DNA of 62,222 nucleotides from Actinomycetota bacterium (lineage in GTDB: Bacteria; Actinomycetota; Actinomycetes; S36-B12; UBA5976), in the NCBI GenBank assembly GCA_947448865.1, contig CANFOW010000004.1:1-62222 (forward strand). The letters run 5' to 3'. Positions 3,572-38,083 of this stretch are shown here, in pieces (the stretch's first letter is position 1; each line of letters starts with the position of its first letter). A program made the translations under genes and the position numbers. Below the pieces are notes generated by a model. It was given only the letters and a program-made list of their open reading frames with translations. It did no database searches and was not told where the DNA came from.

Positions 3572-4807
3572 ATGGGTCTTGTGAACAATGACGTCTTGCA
3601 AAAACACACTATTCGCACGCTGGCTATTACTCAGATTCTGACGGGAATTGGTGTTGTTTCTACAATTGCGGCCGGATCTTTGCTGGTGTCATCAATTTCC
3701 CACTCTGAATCGCTCGCGGGACTTGCCCAAACATTTAACGTTCTCGGCGCAGCCACTATGGCAATACCTCTTGCATCCCTGACTCACCGTGGTGGACGCC
3801 GCTTGGCGCTGTCCACTGGTTATGTCATTGCCACGATTGGTTCAATTAGCGCCATAATCGGCGGCAGTCACAGAATCTTATTTTTTATGCTGGCCGGGAC
3901 CTTCATGATCGGCGCTTCTTCAGCCGCTAACTACCAGTCACGGTTTGCCGCTGTTGATTTATCTCATCCTGAAAGTCGAGCACGAGACTTGTCGTTCGTT
4001 GTGTGGGCATCAACAATCGGCGCAGTGCTCGGCCCGAATCTCATGGCTCCTTTTGGAAGCATCGCGCCATACTTTGGCCTACCGCGCCTGACTGGGCCTT
4101 ACCTTTTGGCTGCAGTCATGCTTGGAATCGCCACTCTGAATGTCTGGTTTCGACTCAAGCCAGATCCCTATCTGACACACATCACACAAACGCACGGCGA
4201 GAATGTAAAGCCGCCTGCTCGACTGTCTGCACGAGTTGTATTAGCTCGAATGAAGAAATCTCCTCGTACCCTTTTGGGCTTAATGTCCATCGCTATTGGT
4301 CACCTGGCAATGGTGTCCATCATGGTGATGACACCAGTGCACATGTCACACGTTGATGTGAGTTTGAAAATTATTGGATTGGTCATCAGTGTTCACGTCG
4401 CTGGAATGTACGCCTTCTCGCCCATTGTCGGCAAGCTTGCTGATCGAATGGGACGCATTCGCGTTATCCAAATTGGAGCAGGCATCCTTTTATTGTCAGG
4501 ACTGATTGCCGGAACCGCAGATGCCGGAAATAGCGTGCAACTTGGCTGTGGGCTTTTCTTACTCGGTGTTGGATGGTCATGCACGTTGATTGCAGGCTCT
4601 ACCTTGCTCACTGAAACAATTGACGACGACATCCGAGCTAGTGCACAAGGAGCAACTGACTTAGTCATGAATCTGTGTGCAGCTGGTGGTGGTGCGCTCG
4701 CGGGATTAATTATCGCCACGCTGAGCTACGGATTCCTGTGTGCCTTCGTGTGTGTACCAGTAGCCTTCCTCGGCTATCGCGCTACGCGATTGGCTGCTGC
4801 TGCGTAA
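3572..4807 (+). CDS. MFS transporter
   Basis: A 411-residue major facilitator protein with about 12 hydrophobic segments. The inter-domain/loop motif GKLADRMGRIRVIQIG (the MFS A-type D-R-x-GR signature) is in the second half, and LTHRGGRRLALS is the equivalent in the first. The start at ATG 3572 avoids a long overlap with the divergent transporter gene; a GTG nine bases further in is possible. The substrate is unknown. Its 3' end overlaps the convergent agmatine deiminase gene by 26 bp. Confidence 0.85.
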   Translation: MGLVNNDVLQKHTIRTLAITQILTGIGVVSTIAAGSLLVSSISHSESLAGLAQTFNVLGAATMAIPLASLTHRGGRRLALSTGYVIATIGSISAIIGGSHRILFFMLAGTFMIGASSAANYQSRFAAVDLSHPESRARDLSFVVWASTIGAVLGPNLMAPFGSIAPYFGLPRLTGPYLLAAVMLGIATLNVWFRLKPDPYLTHITQTHGENVKPPARLSARVVLARMKKSPRTLLGLMSIAIGHLAMVSIMVMTPVHMSHVDVSLKIIGLVISVHVAGMYAFSPIVGKLADRMGRIRVIQIGAGILLLSGLIAGTADAGNSVQLGCGLFLLGVGWSCTLIAGSTLLTETIDDDIRASAQGATDLVMNLCAAGGGALAGLIIATLSYGFLCAFVCVPVAFLGYRATRLAAAA

Positions 4808-9949: not shown

Positions 9950-10803
9950 CTCTCGAGCGCAAACCGAATGCGTGTGCCCGGAGTGACCTGAGCAAGCGTT
10001 GACATGTCACGCGGATCCACAATGCCAATGACGGGATACCCGGCCGTTGTGGGATGGTCAGGACCGAAAATCAACGGAACTCCATCGACGGGCACTTGAA
10101 TCGAACCCATTGCAACGCCTTCACTAGCGAGTCTGCGAGTTGTATCCCATGTGAATGAGTGCCCGTCGAGTCGCACTCCCACCCGATTCAACTTGCTGGT
10201 CACAACGAAGTTTGCTGATGTGATGCTGGACGCATTGCCAAACCAATCCCACCGTGGTCCGCGCCACACTCTGAGCGTCACTGAGTCCGACAATGAGACG
10301 CCTCTGACTGGCCCGAGCGAATTCGGCAAGTCACTCACACTGTCGTTGCCTATCGGCAATGAATCTCCCTGGGCTAACGGTCTTGGTCCTAACCGTGCAA
10401 GTTCGTCGAAACTACGCGACCCCATCACAGGTTCGACATCAAATCCGCCTCGAATCGCGATGTACGTCCGCAAGGCCAATTGAGACGGTTGGATGGCTAC
10501 GACAACATCCTTGCGAACAAAGAGTGGCTCATTCATTGCTTGCTCGTATCCAGCCACCTGAATGCTCACAGGCGCTCCTGTCACGGCGATTTCGCAGTTC
10601 GTGTTGGCGACAAACACAAGCTGAGCCCGACAAGATTCCACAGCTGCTGCGCGTGGCGAGTTACCCAGAATCCGGTTTGCTAGCGAGAACGAGGCTCTGT
10701 CAAAAGCACCACCTGTAGGAACGGCTAGATGCGCGACTCCCCTGCGTCCTTCGTCTTGCAGGCTGGCAAATCCAACGCATGACACGACCTGAATTGATGT
10801 CAT
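9946..10803 (-). CDS. pxpC: 5-oxoprolinase subunit C (biotin-dependent carboxyltransferase/KipA family)
   Basis: A 285-residue member of the AHS2 family, often mislabelled allophanate hydrolase subunit 2. Motifs SLQDEGRRGVAHLAVPTGGAFD, then SLANRILGN, and GPDHPTTAGYPVIG near the end fit PxpC. With PxpA and PxpB it would hydrolyse 5-oxoproline to glutamate using ATP. The ATG at 10803 overlaps the pxpB stop as ATGA, so the two are translationally coupled; the track start six bases earlier is less likely. It is the last gene of a six-gene operon and its stop overlaps the convergent ABC-F gene by 4 bp. Confidence 0.85.
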   Translation of the reverse strand: MTSIQVVSCVGFASLQDEGRRGVAHLAVPTGGAFDRASFSLANRILGNSPRAAAVESCRAQLVFVANTNCEIAVTGAPVSIQVAGYEQAMNEPLFVRKDVVVAIQPSQLALRTYIAIRGGFDVEPVMGSRSFDELARLGPRPLAQGDSLPIGNDSVSDLPNSLGPVRGVSLSDSVTLRVWRGPRWDWFGNASSITSANFVVTSKLNRVGVRLDGHSFTWDTTRRLASEGVAMGSIQVPVDGVPLIFGPDHPTTAGYPVIGIVDPRDMSTLAQVTPGTRIRFALES

Positions 10804-31125: not shown

Positions 31126-31178
31126 AAGACAATTGCCCCGACCAAAACTGGCCGGGGCAATTGTCTTAGTGAGTTTTT
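31126..31178. terminator. Bidirectional terminator between livH and the rhodopsin remnant
   Basis: A perfect 15-bp stem, AAGACAATTGCCCCG (31126-31140) and its complement (31153-31167). T-runs lie a few bases beyond on each side (GAGTTTTTA on plus; CTTTTT on minus), so it can end both convergent transcripts. Confidence 0.75.
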
Positions 31179-31761
31179 AGTGCATGCCCTCAGCAGCGGC
31201 GTATGCAGAATCATCTGCTGCGCTCTTGAGGCGGGCGATCTTGTAAATAGTCAGACCGAATAGACACTTAGCAAGCACGTCGGCAACGGTGTAGCCAACT
31301 TGGCGTCCAACGAATGCTGATGCACCATCAAGGCCTAGAACTGGCATGAGGTACGAGATTGGGTAAACGCCCCATGTTGCAATAAGAAGCAGACGCAAAC
31401 GCTTAACGGTTGCGGATACTGCTGCTGGCTGCTTTTCTAGGGACTTGGTGAGCTCTACGAAAAGAATGTAGAGAATGAAGAGGAATGGGATTGTTGAAAG
31501 TGCACCCCACAGCATCTTCGGACCATTTTCAGACGCAACTTCACCTGGGTAACCGAGGATGATCATAAGCGCTGACGCTGGAACGAGGCGAGAAATGAGC
31601 GACTTACGCTCTGCGCCTGGAAGTGCAAGTACTGCGATTGTTTCAAGCAGCAACAGTGGAACAGTAAGTAACCAGTCAACATAACGGTATGCCTCGTTGA
31701 ATGATCCATCGCCACCATGTGCAGCAACAAATGAATCAAAGACATTTATTGTCAATCTCAA
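31177..31761 (-). pseudogene. 5'-truncated actinorhodopsin (light-driven proton pump)
   Basis: A 194-codon frame coding for helices C to G of a microbial rhodopsin. RYVDWLLTVPLLLLE gives the proton acceptor Asp29 (Asp97 in proteorhodopsin), Leu at the spectral-tuning site (green type) and donor Glu40; GYPGE follows, and ADVLAKCLFGLTIY holds the retinal Lys165. Helices A and B, about 70 residues, are missing: homology begins at VFDSFVAA (end of helix B) and an in-frame TGA lies just before the TTG. The other two frames in the AT-rich 100 bp upstream show no rhodopsin sequence, so this is not a simple frameshift. The remainder is intact, implying a recent break. Confidence 0.8.
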
Positions 31762-31858: not shown

Positions 31859-32209
31859 TTATTTGACTTCGACTCGCAATATTTTTTCCATGGGACGACC
31901 TTTAGCAAGTTCATCAACCAATTTGTCGAGATATCGAATCTTGAGCATAAGTGGATCTTCAATTTCCTGAATTTTCACACCACAAATCGTTCCTGTGATT
32001 AACGATGCATTGGGATTGAGAGTTGCTGCTTTGAAGAAGTCAGTGAAATTCGTGTGGTTCTTAATATGTTGCAGTAATGACTTTTCGGAAAAGCCAGTAA
32101 GCCACTTAATCACGTCGTGAAGTTCACTGACGGTACGTCCCTTTTTCTCAACTTTCCTTACATAATGCGGATATACATCACTAAAAGGCATACTGAAAAT
32201 CTTGTGCAT
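31859..32209 (-). CDS. DUF2200 family protein
   Basis: A 116-residue protein from ATG 32209: HKIFSMPFSDVYPHYVRKVEKKGRT, DVIKWLTGF, LITGTICGVKIQEIEDPLMLKIRYLDKLVDELAKGRPMEKILR. This matches DUF2200 along its full length. ATG 32221 is an alternative that overlaps the YCII gene. Function unknown. It sits just outside the break that truncates the rhodopsin. Confidence 0.83.
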   Translation of the reverse strand: MHKIFSMPFSDVYPHYVRKVEKKGRTVSELHDVIKWLTGFSEKSLLQHIKNHTNFTDFFKAATLNPNASLITGTICGVKIQEIEDPLMLKIRYLDKLVDELAKGRPMEKILRVEVK

Positions 32210-32213
32210 GGTT

Positions 32214-32552
32214 CTAAGCATTTCCTTTGAACTTGCGAATTTCTTGTGGCCAACCGCATGCCATGCCTACCTTGGCGCCCCACATCTTCGCTTCATCATC
32301 TGTGTCCACATTGATAATGGTTAGACCGCCAAGGAACTCCCCTGTTGATGTAATCGGCCCACCGATTACTCCATTTTCATCTGAACCGAAAGCATGTTCA
32401 ATTTCTTCTTCAAGTCCACCGGCAAAAACGACTATGCCAGCTTCCTGCATTTCCTTAACAACTGCTCGAGCAAGTGGCCCTCGTGACTCAAACCATTCAG
32501 CACTGTGATCGCCGACCCATTGCTGGTTGAAATAAATAATGTAATTCGGCAC
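32214..32552 (-). CDS. YCII-related domain protein
   Basis: A 112-residue protein of the YCII/DGPF ferredoxin-like fold: NYIIYFNQQWVGDHSAEWFESRGP and TSTGEFLGGLTIINVDTDDEAKMWGAKVG. The GTG at 32552 follows GAGGAG at a good distance and is preferred to the track's ATG 32582. YCII proteins are small, often redundant enzymes or sigma-factor-associated proteins of unknown substrate. It is upstream of, and probably co-transcribed with, DUF2200. Confidence 0.75.
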   Translation of the reverse strand: MPNYIIYFNQQWVGDHSAEWFESRGPLARAVVKEMQEAGIVVFAGGLEEEIEHAFGSDENGVIGGPITSTGEFLGGLTIINVDTDDEAKMWGAKVGMACGWPQEIRKFKGNA

Positions 32553-32641
32553 GGGCGCTCCTCGTGAAATAAGTTTTATCAACTTTAAGGCTACATATGC
32601 GACATGTGTAACTTCGAAACTCGCAACGGCTAAATTGAGTT

Positions 32642-32926
32642 GTGGAGATTTGCGTCAAAGGAGAAGTTTGGCACTGGCGAGGTCCCTCACCTTTTCACTT
32701 CATCCGCACATCGCCAGCTGAAAGCGAAGAAATAAAGTTTCTCGCTGGACATCTGACTTACGGCTGGGGATGCATTCCGGCAACCGTTCGAATTGGTGAA
32801 ACGACTTTTACGACAGCGCTCATACCTAAGGACGGGATTTACCTCATCCCACTCAAAGCAGTCGTTCGCAATTCCGAAAATCTTGAAATTGGAACGCATA
32901 TCACTGCCACATTAAGTTTCACTTAA
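32642..32926 (+). CDS. DUF1905 domain protein
   Basis: A 94-residue protein with KGEVWHWRGPSPFHFIRTS, LTYGWGCIPATVRIG and YLIPLKAVVRNSENLEIG, matching DUF1905 from end to end. Start GTG 32642. Function unknown. Its stop codon is formed by bases directly abutting the outermost rnpB-end repeat (32925), so an integration event may have fixed its 3' end. Confidence 0.75.
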   Translation: MEICVKGEVWHWRGPSPFHFIRTSPAESEEIKFLAGHLTYGWGCIPATVRIGETTFTTALIPKDGIYLIPLKAVVRNSENLEIGTHITATLSFT

Positions 32927-32955
32927 GTAGACGAGTCGTTCTGTAAGCCGGATTC
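32925..32955. repeat. Direct repeat copy A of the rnpB 3' end
   Basis: 31 bp matching the 3' end of rnpB (37702-37732) with one mismatch (G to T at 32939), in the same orientation. It is the outermost and most diverged of the three copies. The 95 bp that follow (to 33050) hold nothing recognisable. Confidence 0.85.
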
Positions 32956-33050
32956 CGAGTGGCGCTCAAGAAAACCATATCTCAAAGATGAAGTTATAAC
33001 TCTGCCCACGTTGTTGCCCATGAAGTCGTGCTTATTTTGCTACCAAGCAA

Positions 33051-33479
33051 CTAATCACGCACTTCCAGTTCCACAACCTCAATCCCCGAAATCACATCAG
33101 CTAACCTCTTGCCATCTTCTCTGCGCACTATCCCTGAAATGTCCGACAAGTGAAAGCAAACCAGCATAGTTATCCCGAGAGCAAGCAAGATTCCATTCGG
33201 ATTAATCGCATATGCAATGTTTGAAACTGCAAAATATCCAAACCAATAAGCCGTGAAAATCAAGAAGTAGAGGATAAACATTTGAGGACACTTTGCTGGA
33301 GCGTTCGTGGTGTCATTGATCGTAACTATGCGTAACAAGTTTTGAGCAGGCGTTTGTCCTCTCCCCCAGGTAATCAAACTCCAAACCAGCCAACCGATGT
33401 AGGCAGTTCCAATAACCAAAACTATTTCCAAAACCCAAGCCGTGAATCGCCTTGTGGGTTGCACTGGTGTCATGCTCAT
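33051..33479 (-). CDS. RDD-family membrane protein
   Basis: A 142-residue protein from ATG 33479, which overlaps the stop of the upstream gene fragment as ATGA. TRRFTAWVLEIVLV is the RDD-type N-terminus, LITWGRGQTPAQNLLRIVTIND the loop that defines the family, and LVCFHLSDISGIVRREDGKRLADVISG the C-terminal end. Three to four transmembrane helices are apparent. RDD proteins are thought to be transport-related; the substrate is unknown. The gene looks complete but its upstream partner is not. Confidence 0.75.
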   Translation of the reverse strand: MSMTPVQPTRRFTAWVLEIVLVIGTAYIGWLVWSLITWGRGQTPAQNLLRIVTINDTTNAPAKCPQMFILYFLIFTAYWFGYFAVSNIAYAINPNGILLALGITMLVCFHLSDISGIVRREDGKRLADVISGIEVVELEVRD

Positions 33480-33988
33480 TTCTTCAGACTCGCTTTCGTT
33501 TCTGTGACAACTTCGTTGAGAATTTGGTTCCATGGGGTTGGCTGCATTCCAAACGTTTGTCGCGCAGCGCTGTCATCCAAAATGTAAGGGCGCTGCATTT
33601 GATATGCCGTTTCCTTGAGTGCGCGCATCAGAGGATTAAACAACGCAATCAAATTCCAAATAACGGTTGGAACACTCGAGAGCTTTGGATTTGAAACACC
33701 AGCTGTGGATGCTAGTTCACTTACAACTTCATTTTGAGTTTTTGCTTCATTGCTTGGGACATGCCAAGCCTTACCCCAAGCCCTTGAATCCGAAGCAACG
33801 ATCTTCATAAGTCGAGCAACATCTAGCGGATACGTCCACGTGTGCTTTAGATCAATCGCTCCCAGAACTTGCGCCGGTTTACCTGCGAGCACCTTTGGCA
33901 TAACGCGCGCACCAACACGACTTTGATCGCCAGCGCATACATAATCGGATCCTCGAACTTCAGTGGCCTTAATGATTCCGGCATTCAT
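33476..33988 (-). pseudogene. C-terminal fragment of an NAD-dependent epimerase (SDR)
   Basis: About 170 codons correspond to the second half of an extended/atypical SDR: TEVRGSDYVCAGDQSRVGARVMPKVLAGKPAQVLGAIDLKHTWTYPLDVARLM...WHVPSNEAKTQ. The Rossmann glycine motif and catalytic Tyr/Lys region, roughly the first 120-140 residues, are absent. Homology stops near 34000-34025, where a TetR fragment begins on the other strand, also without its 5' half. It cannot bind NAD as it stands and is best read as a remnant. Confidence 0.65.
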
Positions 33989-34030
33989 TTGTTTTGATTC
34001 TCCCGAACTCGAACCCGACTTCCCTAACCC

Positions 34031-34246
34031 GTGGAATTGTTGATGGACTCGCTTACAGAGTTGAATGAACTCGGCTGCCTTTCAGATAAGAACGTCAAAA
34101 CTGCTCCAATGATTGCTTGGAGCATGGTTCATGGCTTTGCAGGATTAGCCGCACAAGGTGCAACTGGTAACTCAAACGAAACTCTTGCTTCGAAAAAGGA
34201 TGTTCTTGCCGCAGTGCTGAAGTCGCTAGACATTAGAAACAACTAG
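34031..34246 (+). pseudogene. C-terminal fragment of a TetR-type regulator
   Basis: A 71-codon frame whose KTAPMIAWSMVHGFAGLAAQGATG resembles the WHG-type ligand-binding C-terminus of TetR/AcrR proteins (A-W-S-x-V-H-G). The DNA-binding half is missing and an in-frame TAA lies two codons before the GTG. It faces the SDR fragment; such regulator/SDR pairs are normally divergent around an intact promoter, so a single deletion may have removed both 5' ends. Confidence 0.5.
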
Positions 34247-34590
34247 GAAAGATCTAGCCTTATGTCAAAGGCAACCATTGCGATTGCGATTCCAGCAGAC
34301 CAAAGCAACGTGCTAGCAATAATGAGCTTCGATGCTCGAAATGGCTTAACTCCTGCCGCAACAGATGCCATCGCGGCAATCTGAGTACCAATTAAAGCTG
34401 GAGCGGCTATCGCCATGCCATAGATCCCATACTTATCGAACATGCGAACGGCTTTTTCAAACTTAGGCGATTCACCAGTTTTACCTTTTGCTGCACGTCG
34501 CTTGATGATTCGATTGCGCATAGTCGAACTCAGATACGCGAAAACTACAATCGCAATTGCATCACCAATTACTGCAGCAATCACAGCCAA
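34243..34590 (-). pseudogene. Fragment of a small multidrug-export/DedA-like membrane protein
   Basis: About 115 codons from a TTG: two hydrophobic regions (AVIAAVIGDAIAIVVFAYL and TQIAAMASVAAG...LIIASTLLWSAGIAIAM) around RMFDKYGIYGMAIAAPALIG, like the later part of the Sm_multidrug_ex family. The usual first helix with its conserved Glu is missing, and homology ends at about 34590 where another truncated gene begins on the opposite strand. It overlaps the TetR fragment by 4 bp at their 3' ends. Confidence 0.5.
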
Positions 34591-34816
34591 CGCTGATCTT
34601 GAATTACGGTCAGCACCTAACTGTGGCGTGCTCTGTTGGCGTCACAAGAGCGTAAGCGTTGACGACATTAAGCGGCATCTTCCTGACGATGTAATGGTGT
34701 CAAGCACAACTATTAACGGCGAACCATGGCTCAGATCAGTTGCCGCAAACCCAAACGCAAACCCTGCCAAGGTTGTTGCGGGAGTAATACGAGCGGCTGA
34801 AAGAGCTCAGCGTTGA
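34591..34816 (+). pseudogene. C-terminal fragment of a PLP-dependent (group II) decarboxylase
   Basis: Within the track ORF 34442-34816 only the last ~75 codons look like protein: PNCGVLCWRHKS, then a helix and INGEPWLRSVAANPNANPAKVVAGVIRAAE, which is the tail of group II amino-acid decarboxylases (aromatic, diaminobutyrate or glutamate type). The PLP lysine region and everything before it are gone. It converges on the HDAC-like gene, leaving 32 bp between stops. Confidence 0.55.
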
Positions 34817-34848
34817 GTTGGTCGGTAATACTTGCCATGAATTGACGA

Positions 34849-35949
34849 TTAGAGCCCGTGGATCCCAGCAGCCCGAGTAATGAGTCTGGCTTGAACCTCA
34901 GTCAAGGCCTGCTCTGGCAGGCGTTCGCGGTCTGGGCCATACGGGTCGTCGATATGTGTTTTAACGCCAGACATAGTCTCCAAAACTGCCAAGCCACAAT
35001 ATGGAACGTAAGTCGGTGAATAGCCACCTTCATGAGTCATCATGACCTTGCCGTCACACACTTCATCGGCCACCGCGAGCAGCAATTCAGTGAGCTGTCG
35101 ATAGCCAGATGCCGTCAGCAACATTCGACCAAGCGGATCAAAAGCACTTGCATCAAAACCCGATGGCACCACAATCACATCGGGATTAAACCTGCGGATA
35201 GCTGGCACGACAACTTTGATGAATGCCTCAACGTAGCCACCATTGCCCGAGGCGGCTGGCAATGGAATGTTTATAACTGAACCAGTCGCTGATTCATCAC
35301 CAACGTCGTCAATTAAGCCACTATTCATTGGATACAAGTTGTCTTGGTGAAGCGAAATGCATAACACGTTTGGATCCGAGTAGTAAATCTCTTGGGTGCC
35401 ATTGCCATGGTGTACATCCCAGTCGACAACTGCTACTCGCTTGACGCCCATAGTTGCTCGGACATTTTCAATCGCGATGGCAGCATTGGCAAAAATGCAA
35501 AATCCCATTCCGGTCGATGGTATGGAGTGATGGCCAGGTGGTCGCACTAACGCATACGCATTGTTAACGCTGCCGCCTACTACTGCACGCAATGCCTCAA
35601 TGGCGCCACCGGCTGCCAATGCTGCGATTTCGTAGCCACCATAACCAAACGGTGACTCTCCGTCGCCGGCGTCGCCACCTTTTGGATTGAGACTCTCAGC
35701 CTTGATGCGAGCAATGTGCGCGGCAGAGTGAACTCGCAAAATATCTTCTTCAGTTGCTGGCACGGCAGGAATGCGAACCAAGTCTTTAGCTAGTCCTGAC
35801 ACTTCAACTAATGACGCAAAACGAACTTTTGTTTCTGCGCTTTCAAAGTGTTGATACGGCTGCACTGTCGTACTTGGAAACACATGCCCCGCAAATGTTC
35901 CAGTGTCGTGCCAGCCATAAAGTTCTTCCCACACGTAACCAGTTGTCAT
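34849..35949 (-). CDS. HDAC-like / acetylpolyamine amidohydrolase-family deacetylase
   Basis: A 366-residue class II-type deacetylase. The zinc and catalytic residues are visible: RPPGHHSIPSTGMGFCIFANAAIA, VVDWDVHHGNGTQ, PSGFDASAFDPLGRM and a THEGGYS near the end. Bacterial members remove acyl groups from polyamines, small amides or lysines; the enzyme fits the polyamine/guanidino theme of the window but this is inference. It appears complete, unlike its neighbours, and is the gene nearest to repeat copy B. Confidence 0.85.
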   Translation of the reverse strand: MTTGYVWEELYGWHDTGTFAGHVFPSTTVQPYQHFESAETKVRFASLVEVSGLAKDLVRIPAVPATEEDILRVHSAAHIARIKAESLNPKGGDAGDGESPFGYGGYEIAALAAGGAIEALRAVVGGSVNNAYALVRPPGHHSIPSTGMGFCIFANAAIAIENVRATMGVKRVAVVDWDVHHGNGTQEIYYSDPNVLCISLHQDNLYPMNSGLIDDVGDESATGSVINIPLPAASGNGGYVEAFIKVVVPAIRRFNPDVIVVPSGFDASAFDPLGRMLLTASGYRQLTELLLAVADEVCDGKVMMTHEGGYSPTYVPYCGLAVLETMSGVKTHIDDPYGPDRERLPEQALTEVQARLITRAAGIHGL

Positions 35950-36021
35950 GAGTGTGACTTTACAACTCTTAGCGGCGCTTAACCCTCCCCTTGAAAGGTT
36001 TGATCAACACGTCTTGAGCAG

Positions 36022-36050
36022 AAAGTAGACGAGTCGGTCTGTAAGCCGGA
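36022..36050. repeat. Direct repeat copy B of the rnpB 3' end
   Basis: 29 bp identical to 37701-37729, the end of rnpB, in the same orientation. It separates the surface-protein segment from the HDAC segment. Identity suggests it is younger than copy A. Confidence 0.9.
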
Positions 36051-36100
36051 GACCTCAACAGCTGCTGTGTTGGCTCCCGCCGCCACACTTGTTGACGTTG

Positions 36101-37609
36101 CTATGGCGTTGGTTCGAGTCCGCGATCGCTAATTTTCCAGCCCTTATTATTTATCAGCGCATCGCGAGCGGCTTGTGCCCCAGAGCTGTAATAAGTAACT
36201 GGCGCATCTAACCGCACATCACTTTGCAGATTCGACACATTGCTATATAAAGCATTTAACAATGCGGAATAATTTGCAGTGGAAAAGGCTGAGGCACCAG
36301 TGAACATGCTGTCCATGAAAGTGACTTTAGATGTGTCCCAAGTACTGATGTTTTGGTTGAAGGCTGTCGCGCCGTTGAACATGTAGCCCATCCTGATTAC
36401 TTTAGACGTATTCCACGAACCGATGTTCTGATTAAAGACTGAGGCGCCGTTGAACATGCTGTTCATATTCTCGACCTTTGAGGTATTCCACGAACCGATG
36501 TTCTGGTTAAAGACTAAGGCGCTGTCGAACATGCTGTCCATATTCTCGACCTTTGACGTATTCCACGAACCGATGTTCTGATTAAAGCTTGGGGCGCCGA
36601 GGAACATGACGGCCATGTTGGTGACCTTAGATGTGTCCCACGCACTGATGTTCTGGTTAAAGACAGAGGCATATTGGAACATGCCGCGCATGTTGGTGAC
36701 CTTAGAAGTGTTCCATGGACTTATGTTCTGGTTAAAACGTGAGGCGAAGCTGAACATGTACGACATGTCGGTGACCTGAGACGTATTCCACGAACTGATA
36801 TCCTGATTAAACAATTCCGCGCCATCGAACATGTCCGACATGTTGGTAACTGAATTTGGAACTGTTGTCGGCACACTCGTTAGCGATGTAGCGCCGTAAA
36901 ATGCAGCCGAAAAGCTTGTCCAGTTTCCAAACCAGCTCGAAACGGATGTCAACTGCGAGACTCCCGCGAAGCTATAGGAATCGCCAAAAGTAAGACCGTC
37001 CGTACCCGAGAGGTAAGAAAAGATCACCGTCATGGGTACCGGTGAGGATTCAGAGTTTGTAAAATCACACGTCAGCACATTGGGGCATTTTGCGGGATCG
37101 TTATTCCACAGGACACTCGGCGTACCAGTCACACCAGAAATAGGCAAAGTCACCTTAGTTGTCGCAGATGCTGGAAGAGAAAAATTGAGAGTCATCGAGG
37201 TAACAATGTAAGGGGCCGCTCCAGCGACATACGTCACCTTTGCACTAGCCGGACCAAATCCTTTTTTGTTTTTCGATTTTGCGAACACGGAAACAGTCTT
37301 GCCATTCCTAATTGACTTAACTGTGCACGACGTTTTGGTTTTCTTAATCGTGCACGACTTACCACCCGCAGTTACCGTGCTGCCAGTAATCGTTGAGCCA
37401 CCGTTATTTGTAGGCAACACGACAGTCACTGTGAGGTTGACTTTCCCCTTTTTAGGAGTCGAAGAAACAATCGACACCACGGTTGGCGCCGACGGCTTTG
37501 CAATCTTTACTTTTGTGGGAAGACTAGTTACTGAAAGAGCCCTAGAGGGAGCAGCTGCAACGCCAGCAGCAAGCAACAACATGGTCACAAGAATAAGAAA
37601 TTTACGCAC
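36101..37609 (-). CDS. BspA-like surface protein with DUF285 repeats
   Basis: A 502-residue secreted protein. Residues 1-24 are a signal peptide ([22 protein letters not shown]); ~40-130 form a fibronectin-III-like domain with a Cys-containing segment; ~260-450 hold seven full and one partial 25-residue repeats of the type [22 protein letters not shown] (BspA-like leucine-rich family). The C-terminus has no LPXTG or membrane anchor that I can see. A role in adhesion or cell-surface interaction is inferred. It is the only gene between repeat copies B and C, so it looks like a single-gene cassette. Confidence 0.85.
36280..36843 (-). repeat. 75-bp tandem repeats in the BspA-like gene
   Basis: Seven full 25-codon units and a partial one, all in frame, with closely similar DNA (for example runs of ATGTTCTGGTTAAA-like sequence on the plus strand). 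Similarity is highest between the central units, consistent with unit gain or loss by recombination. Confidence 0.85.
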
Positions 37610-37700
37610 GGTCGGGACTCCTCAAAAATCACAATGTTTAACAGTACTGAAAATGCTCCAAGAAATGGTTCGTTTCGTGATTTACCGTTGCTTAATAGGC

Positions 37701-37732
37701 AAAGTAGACGAGTCGGTCTGTAAGCCGGATTC
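37701..37732. repeat. Repeat copy C (authentic rnpB 3' end)
   Basis: The genuine 3' terminus of rnpB, shared over 29 bp with copy B and over 31 bp (one mismatch) with copy A. It would be the target site if these are attachment-site repeats. Confidence 0.85.
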
Positions 37733-38083
37733 TGTACGCTTGCGCGTGATGATCATCCATCTGCGATTGCTGTTGCCAGCAACCTGTTGCAACCTACCCG
37801 CAGGCTGATAGCGGGCCGCTACCTGCGTCAGACCCGAAGGTCCTCTTGGTCTTGCTCCGAGTGGGGTTTACCTAGCCGCTCATGTCACCATGTGCGCTGG
37901 TGGTCTCTTACACCACCGTTTCACCCTGACCTAGCTACGCTTGCGCGAAACTAGGCGGTCTACTTTCTGTTGCACTTTCCCGTGGGTCACCCCAGGTGGA
38001 CGTTATCCACCACTCTTGCCCTATGGAGTCCGGACTTTCCTCGAACATTGCTGCCCGCGATCATCCGACCGACTCGTCTGTTT
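37701..38083 (-). ncRNA. rnpB: RNase P RNA
   Basis: Read on the minus strand, the sequence contains the bacterial type A core: GAGGAAAGTCCGGACTCCA near the 5' end, AACAGAAAGTAGACCGCC, GGTAAACCCC, and ACAGAATCCGGCTTA near the 3' end. The ends pair as the P1 stem (GACGAGTCGG with CCGACTCGTC), which fixes the gene limits to within a few bases. No good terminator follows. Its last ~30 bp are the source of the direct repeats at 36022 and 32925. Small plus-strand ORFs drawn across it (37941-38123) are not real. Confidence 0.96.

Follow-up and report, generated by a model that had tools for sequence, protein, structure and literature searches.

The window analysed here, the whole 62,222-nucleotide stretch of contig CANFOW010000004.1 from an Actinomycetota bacterium, contains repeated copies of the 3′ end of rnpB, the gene for the RNA of RNase P. 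Serial site-specific integration at this 3′ end is well supported. The DNA that entered probably consisted of cassettes which carry no integrase of their own and depended for their movement on one supplied in trans.

Copies of the rnpB 3′ end in the window

The gene and the copies of its terminal 25-bp core, TAGACGAGTCGGTCTGTAAGCCGGA, are located as follows.

37705–38076, minus strand: rnpB, RNase P RNA class A (RF00010 match, 301.6 bits)
37701–37732, plus strand: core copy 3, the working rnpB 3′ end (0 mismatches)
36022–36050, plus strand: core copy 2, dividing the histone deacetylase (HDAC) gene from the DUF285 cassette (29 bp identical, E = 1.4e-8)
32925–32955, plus strand: core copy 1, the displaced original rnpB end (1 mismatch; alignment with G031)
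about 34815–34830, plus strand: possible decayed fourth core GAGTTGGTCGGTAA, uncertain (12/14 bases, p = 0.0125)

An earlier note on this DNA, made from the sequence alone, had claimed three direct copies, perfect next to rnpB and diverged at the outer side. All three were recovered on the plus strand, with the core starting at 37705 (0 mismatches), 36026 (0) and 32928 (1). These are its only places in the bacterium's own genome (the whole 1.75-Mb assembly was searched), and the two extra ones have E-values of 1.4e-8 and 2.7e-8. Scored with a position-specific matrix of the core, the three copies reach 43–48 bits and 60 random 20-kb sequences a maximum of 4.5 bits, so the triplication is far above chance. 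The rnpB 3′ end itself is intact and the displaced cores lie beyond it, as in islands at RNA genes. The possible fourth core is weak when taken alone; it sits where G021, a genome of the same genus, keeps an intact core beside the homologous end of a decarboxylase gene.

Read on the plus strand in one frame (AGA CGA GTC GGT CTG TAA), the core provides a stop codon. The open reading frame (ORF) of a DUF418 cassette in G034 (L045 1656–2834) terminates within the core.

Arrays in related genomes

The relatives are metagenome bins of freshwater Candidatus Nanopelagicales or actinobacteria, of the same genus and with small genomes. Extra cores were found in 13 of the 21 same-genus genomes with an rnpB, at 1–7 per genome: seven in G039, three in G030, two each in G000 (the genome to which the window belongs), G024, G033 and G034, and one each in G020, G021, G022, G025, G032, G038 and G041 (on another contig). 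They share one orientation and lie downstream of rnpB, except for two on separate contigs (in G032, a further one). Sixty genomes of other genera were covered as well: their rnpB downstream flanks, 439 kb in total, yielded only two more copies (≤6 mismatches), in G105 and G077, and G106, congeneric with G105, has a cassette too.

The core-bounded segments vary among relatives in content and number (0–7 extra copies). The earlier note had proposed that rnpB serves cassettes much as tRNA genes serve islands, and had asked for the rnpB 3′ flank to be compared across relatives. The comparison bears this out, with variable segments and no fixed gene order.

The core copies are alike over 23–25 bp and then diverge immediately at both edges; nearly all stop at one base (CCGGA). 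The 18 bounded units (one cassette being counted separately in each genome carrying it) have a median length of 707 bp, are 91% coding and mostly hold one gene; units as short as 307–524 bp occur. Both gene orientations are found, with 12 of the 18 along the direction of rnpB. Contents include aminotransferase, DUF418, DinB, ASCH, AHSA1, DUF2200, YCII and DUF1989 genes, and no integrase is present among the listed cassette ORFs of the genus. Sharing of about 35–65 bp at the ends is limited to four pairs of cassettes that seem to differ from each other.

That part of rnpB was duplicated in tandem, or that the copies are an artefact of assembly, is scarcely conceivable. Many contigs do stop at rnpB, and decayed rnpB 3′ fragments are present in G025 (165 bp) and G041 (83 bp), but most copies have only 23–25 bp in common, end at one base and are separated by unrelated DNA. 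Bins that were assembled independently have identical cassette junctions, the G039 array is embedded in a 71.8-kb contig, and the variable cassette content contradicts such an origin. Partial duplication, which the earlier note had itself raised as a competing explanation, therefore fails here: nearly all copies end at CCGGA and only a few outer ones are longer.

Several side observations concern array structure. The outer copy in G025 (L121, oriented 10099–10265) is a decayed rnpB 3′ end of about 165 bp. The segment that holds it also has a Fic/Doc-type gene, and on the opposite side of the rnpB array region there is a DUF418-like gene. What at first appeared as a second whole-length rnpB match in G025 was this 165-bp fragment, not a second gene. 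G041 was considered as an empty site for G033 and dropped, since the true G041 rnpB is on another contig. In G032, contig C5 (L053, oriented 2530) lacks rnpB and has a core copy beside a BspA-type leucine-rich-repeat gene; this is either an unassembled part of the array or a second site. DUF418 membrane proteins are repeatedly found as cargo (arrays of G024, G034, G022, G030 and G025). Comparison of G022 with G021 uncovered a DUF418-like gene inserted between 55-bp direct repeats which are not the rnpB core (L035 406–461 and 1660–1715, oriented). Two cassette right ends have sequence resembling a tRNA 3′ half directly before the core (L044 ~3862–3908; L053 ~2485–2529; oriented coordinates), and ARAGORN detected no whole tRNA genes at these ends. 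At a cassette boundary of G021 (L034 ~9790) half a core, AAGTAGACGAGTC, is followed by unrelated sequence and may mark the side of the crossover.

Order of insertion and probable transfer between genomes

The DUF1905 gene lies directly at rnpB in G031; in the window the same flank is followed by core 1, then 4.8 kb, then rnpB. The YCII gene likewise lies directly at rnpB in G038, and in G039 the same flank is followed by a core and then 9.4 kb. G031 and G038 show the pre-insertion states of the window and of G039, respectively. Outer cores also tend to be more decayed: in G030 they have 1, 2, 3 and 6 mismatches from rnpB outward. This outward decay, together with the pre-insertion states, argues that DNA is added next to rnpB, and repeatedly so, as the earlier note had supposed. 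The aminotransferase cassette is nearest rnpB in G021 and G022, and the DinB cassette, next to rnpB in G024, is second in G039, behind the aminotransferase cassette.

Cassettes recurring with cores at both ends are DinB (G024, G039), ASCH (G030, G034) and aminotransferase (G021, G022, G039). DUF2200 is outside YCII in the window and in G031; in G039 it is inside YCII, with a core on each side. This swap of order rules out deletion alone as the cause.

Some cassettes are far more alike between species than chromosomal genes are, which in these cases suggests transfer between species. A VTT-type gene piece of the window is 98.8% identical to its counterpart in G028 and 97.6% to that in G021; as baselines for the same genome, the XerC/XerD regions are 70–74% identical (to G039 and G029) and rnpB 87–89% (to G028 and G021). 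Between G021 and G039, identity is 95% for the aminotransferase cassette together with rnpB and 90% for rpoB.

Homologous recombination without any site-specific recombinase, in which transformed or transduced DNA with a cassette and rnpB would be exchanged, rnpB serving as homology at one end and the 25-bp core at the other, is improbable. Given cassettes already bounded by cores, it would yield the structure found, and some flanking chromosomal DNA is unusually alike (92% between G021 and G039 beside the array). Yet it leaves unexplained how such cassettes arise and why phages use the same core edges, and RecA-dependent exchange would have very little to work with in 25 bp. The rnpB identities, moreover, roughly follow those of rpoB, so there is no sign that rnpB travels with the cassettes or is replaced along with them; joint replacement was rejected for this reason.

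Integrase-bearing elements using the same core

The earlier note had suggested a search for tyrosine recombinases whose elements end in the repeat, and these exist in other elements. In G159, which belongs to another genus, a 2,960-bp element lies between two cores, and 31 bp separate its integrase (PF00589) from rnpB. The IMG/VR prophage 2867425335 (38.8 kb) has GACGAGTCGGCCTGTAAGCCGGA at both ends, with an integrase adjoining one of them, and in the phage contig 3300038701_002080 the integrase lies close to a copy of this core. A related integrase adjoins an apparent rnpB 3′ end in the viral contig 3300044812_000037. All four integrases belong to PF00589 / phrog_1. Both viral cores (prophage and phage contig) have C where the genus has T.

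An integrase-bearing island, a prophage and a phage contig thus agree with the cassettes in the core and in its edges. Judged from these sequences, phage-type tyrosine integrases do use the rnpB 3′ end as an attachment site. The cassettes are tied to such integrases mainly because their core edges match those of the prophage and the phage contig. A blastn comparison of the site with GenBank phages gave marginal matches only. The large viral contig 3300028920_000026 (L131; 190,723 bp) contains an apparent rnpB 3′ region, which is either host flank or a phage-borne rnpB.

Recombinases in the genus

Most genomes of the genus possess XerC and XerD as their only tyrosine recombinases, which family models support in G000 and G039. 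One additional integrase each was found in G020 (unlinked) and G030 (beside a tRNA-Lys gene). A weak PF00589 match in the bacterium's own genome (C66) was discarded, as the ORF mainly matches UvrD and PD-(D/E)XK domains. Serine recombinases (PF00239) are absent from 23 genomes of the genus.

With XerC and XerD the sole candidates in most of these genomes, and with single-gene cassettes that lack both integrase and arm motif and so resemble integron cassettes and pdif modules, movement by host XerC/XerD or by an integron integrase comes to mind. It is very improbable. The dif-like site of the genus, GATAAGATACATTATGTCAA, is single-copy and unlike the core; no integron R box (GTTRRRY / RYYYAAC) is present in the core plus three flanking bases per side; and the recombinases of G000 and G039 score 110–126 bits against the integron integrase model TIGR02249, the cut-off of which is 265.

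Cargo genes of the window

The genes and segments outward from rnpB are listed below.

36101–37609, minus strand: DUF285 repeat surface-type protein, the sole gene of the newest cassette (36051–37704; PF03382, E = 4.2e-91)
34849–35949, minus strand: histone-deacetylase-family gene (PF00850, E = 1.9e-83)
32956–34813, no strand: eroded multigene block (longer pieces or whole genes in G039, G021, G022, G028 and G030)
32642–32926, plus strand: DUF1905 gene, older cargo just outside core 1 (PF08922; adjoins rnpB directly in G031)
32214–32582, minus strand: YCII-type gene (in G038 a cassette between cores, L048 5212–5621; no cores visible around the window copy)
31859–32221, minus strand: DUF2200 gene (PF09966, E = 1.5e-49; a core-bounded cassette elsewhere, in the G039 array, L049 12851–13232)

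The earlier note had described one segment with a lone surface protein and another with an HDAC-like gene and fragments, and this content stands. Between cores 2 and 3 lies the DUF285 surface-type gene, with a signal peptide predicted by eye. Between cores 1 and 2 are the HDAC-family gene, an RDD-like gene and gene fragments. Sequence comparison indicates that this 3.1-kb segment has two parts, the eroded remains of a larger multigene block and what is probably a single-gene HDAC cassette. The block holds the RDD-like gene and fragments of an NAD-binding protein, a TetR C-terminus, a VTT-type membrane protein and a PLP decarboxylase C-terminus. Longer counterparts are found in G039 (RDD and NAD-binding), G039 and G028 (TetR), G021, G028 and G030 (VTT), and G021 and G022 (PLP decarboxylase). 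The HDAC gene probably forms a separate 1.2-kb cassette, because the weak core-like sequence parts it from the eroded block.

At the outer end, a rhodopsin gene (31177–31761, minus strand) lacks the first ~60 profile positions (PF01036 62–220). It may have been severed by the outer end of the array, because its absent 5′ part would fall where DUF2200 now is.

Proposed mechanism

The units most likely move as integrase-less cassettes through a recombinase supplied in trans, a reading drawn from comparison of sequences. The last 23–25 bp of rnpB would be the attachment site. Small DNA circles bearing the core, usually with one complete gene and hardly any spare sequence, would integrate at the rnpB end. 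Every integration would restore the rnpB 3′ end and push the former end outward as a displaced core, together with the DNA beyond it. Repetition would produce an array running from newest to oldest outward from rnpB, in which, with age, cores would mutate and cassettes would erode through deletion. The recombinase would most likely be a phage-type tyrosine integrase acting in trans from an infecting element. A more far-reaching version can be put forward tentatively. It is an integron-like gene capture, in which rnpB may be a fixed docking site, its 25-bp 3′ end the whole recombination site, and a recombinase in trans may move free single-gene cassettes between species of these streamlined freshwater actinobacteria.

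Several results weigh against integration of such cassettes in trans. A few outer copies hold 48–165 bp of rnpB instead of 25. The cassette ends have no general arm motif in common, unlike attP sites of the lambda type. No core-specific integrase was found in the genus and none is linked to the arrays, and the exact 24-mer of the genus occurs in no IMG/VR contig. DinB is 86% identical between G024 and G039 (rpoB 90%), a divergence which vertical descent could explain. Neither a circular form nor an excision junction was seen in these data, which are metagenome bins.

The cassettes might instead be relics of integrase-bearing islands or prophages which entered rnpB serially and lost the integrase and most genes by deletion, the survivors spreading by homologous recombination of their flanks. 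This is rather unlikely. Elements with an integrase at rnpB do occur within the order, the outer segment of the window has been eroded from a larger block that is seen in G021, G028 and G039, large segments without visible internal cores are present in G021 and G028, and the DinB divergence fits vertical descent. Random deletion would, however, rarely leave what is found in the bounded cassettes: mostly complete single genes with cores at the ends, 91% coding and some only 307–524 bp long. The listed cassette ORFs contain no integrase remnant, and the differing DUF2200/YCII order also counts against relics.

Comparison with known systems and significance

Several known systems come close to the arrays. 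The phage-type integrase elements at rnpB (G159, 2867425335 and 3300038701_002080) have the same 23-bp core with the same edges and are at rnpB where integrated; they encode their own integrase, whereas the cassettes do not. The pdif modules are small gene modules bounded by a site of ~25–28 bp and lacking a recombinase. The rnpB core, in contrast, is not dif-like, and all its copies are direct and at one locus. Tycheposons are inserted at tRNA genes and bring a tyrosine recombinase of their own; the arrays sit at rnpB and have no recombinase in their cassettes. Both are cargo islands at RNA genes of streamlined plankton (Tycheposons in Prochlorococcus and relatives; PMC10872708 for Methylophilaceae).

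Islands at tRNA and tmRNA genes (Islander type, PMC4383910) similarly restore the 3′ end of the RNA gene, leave a displaced fragment at the far end and accrete in tandem. The arrays differ from them in their target, rnpB, and in their units of ~0.3–1.7 kb, mostly of one gene and without an internal integrase. Integrase-less integron arrays (CALIN, PMC11389934) likewise consist of short single-gene cassettes with a recombination site between them and entry at one fixed end, but the rnpB arrays have no attC-type boxes or IntI, their genes are in both orientations and their anchor is rnpB. Lacking attC and IntI on the one hand and an internal integrase on the other, they are not members of the integron or RNA-gene-island class; in their working they nevertheless resemble both an integron array without integrase and an island at an RNA gene. 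In the literature searched, from which most subscription papers are missing, nothing describes the use of rnpB for attachment; earlier mentions are possible. Where papers contain both rnpB and integration terms, rnpB comes up in another context.

With these arrays rnpB, a single-copy essential RNA gene, joins the genes known as integration ports. Streamlined plankton could in this way acquire metabolic genes one by one and need not carry a recombinase. Outward from rnpB, the sequence of cassettes in an array shows which genes were gained before which, and the 25-bp core provides a handle for mining such cassettes in metagenomes.

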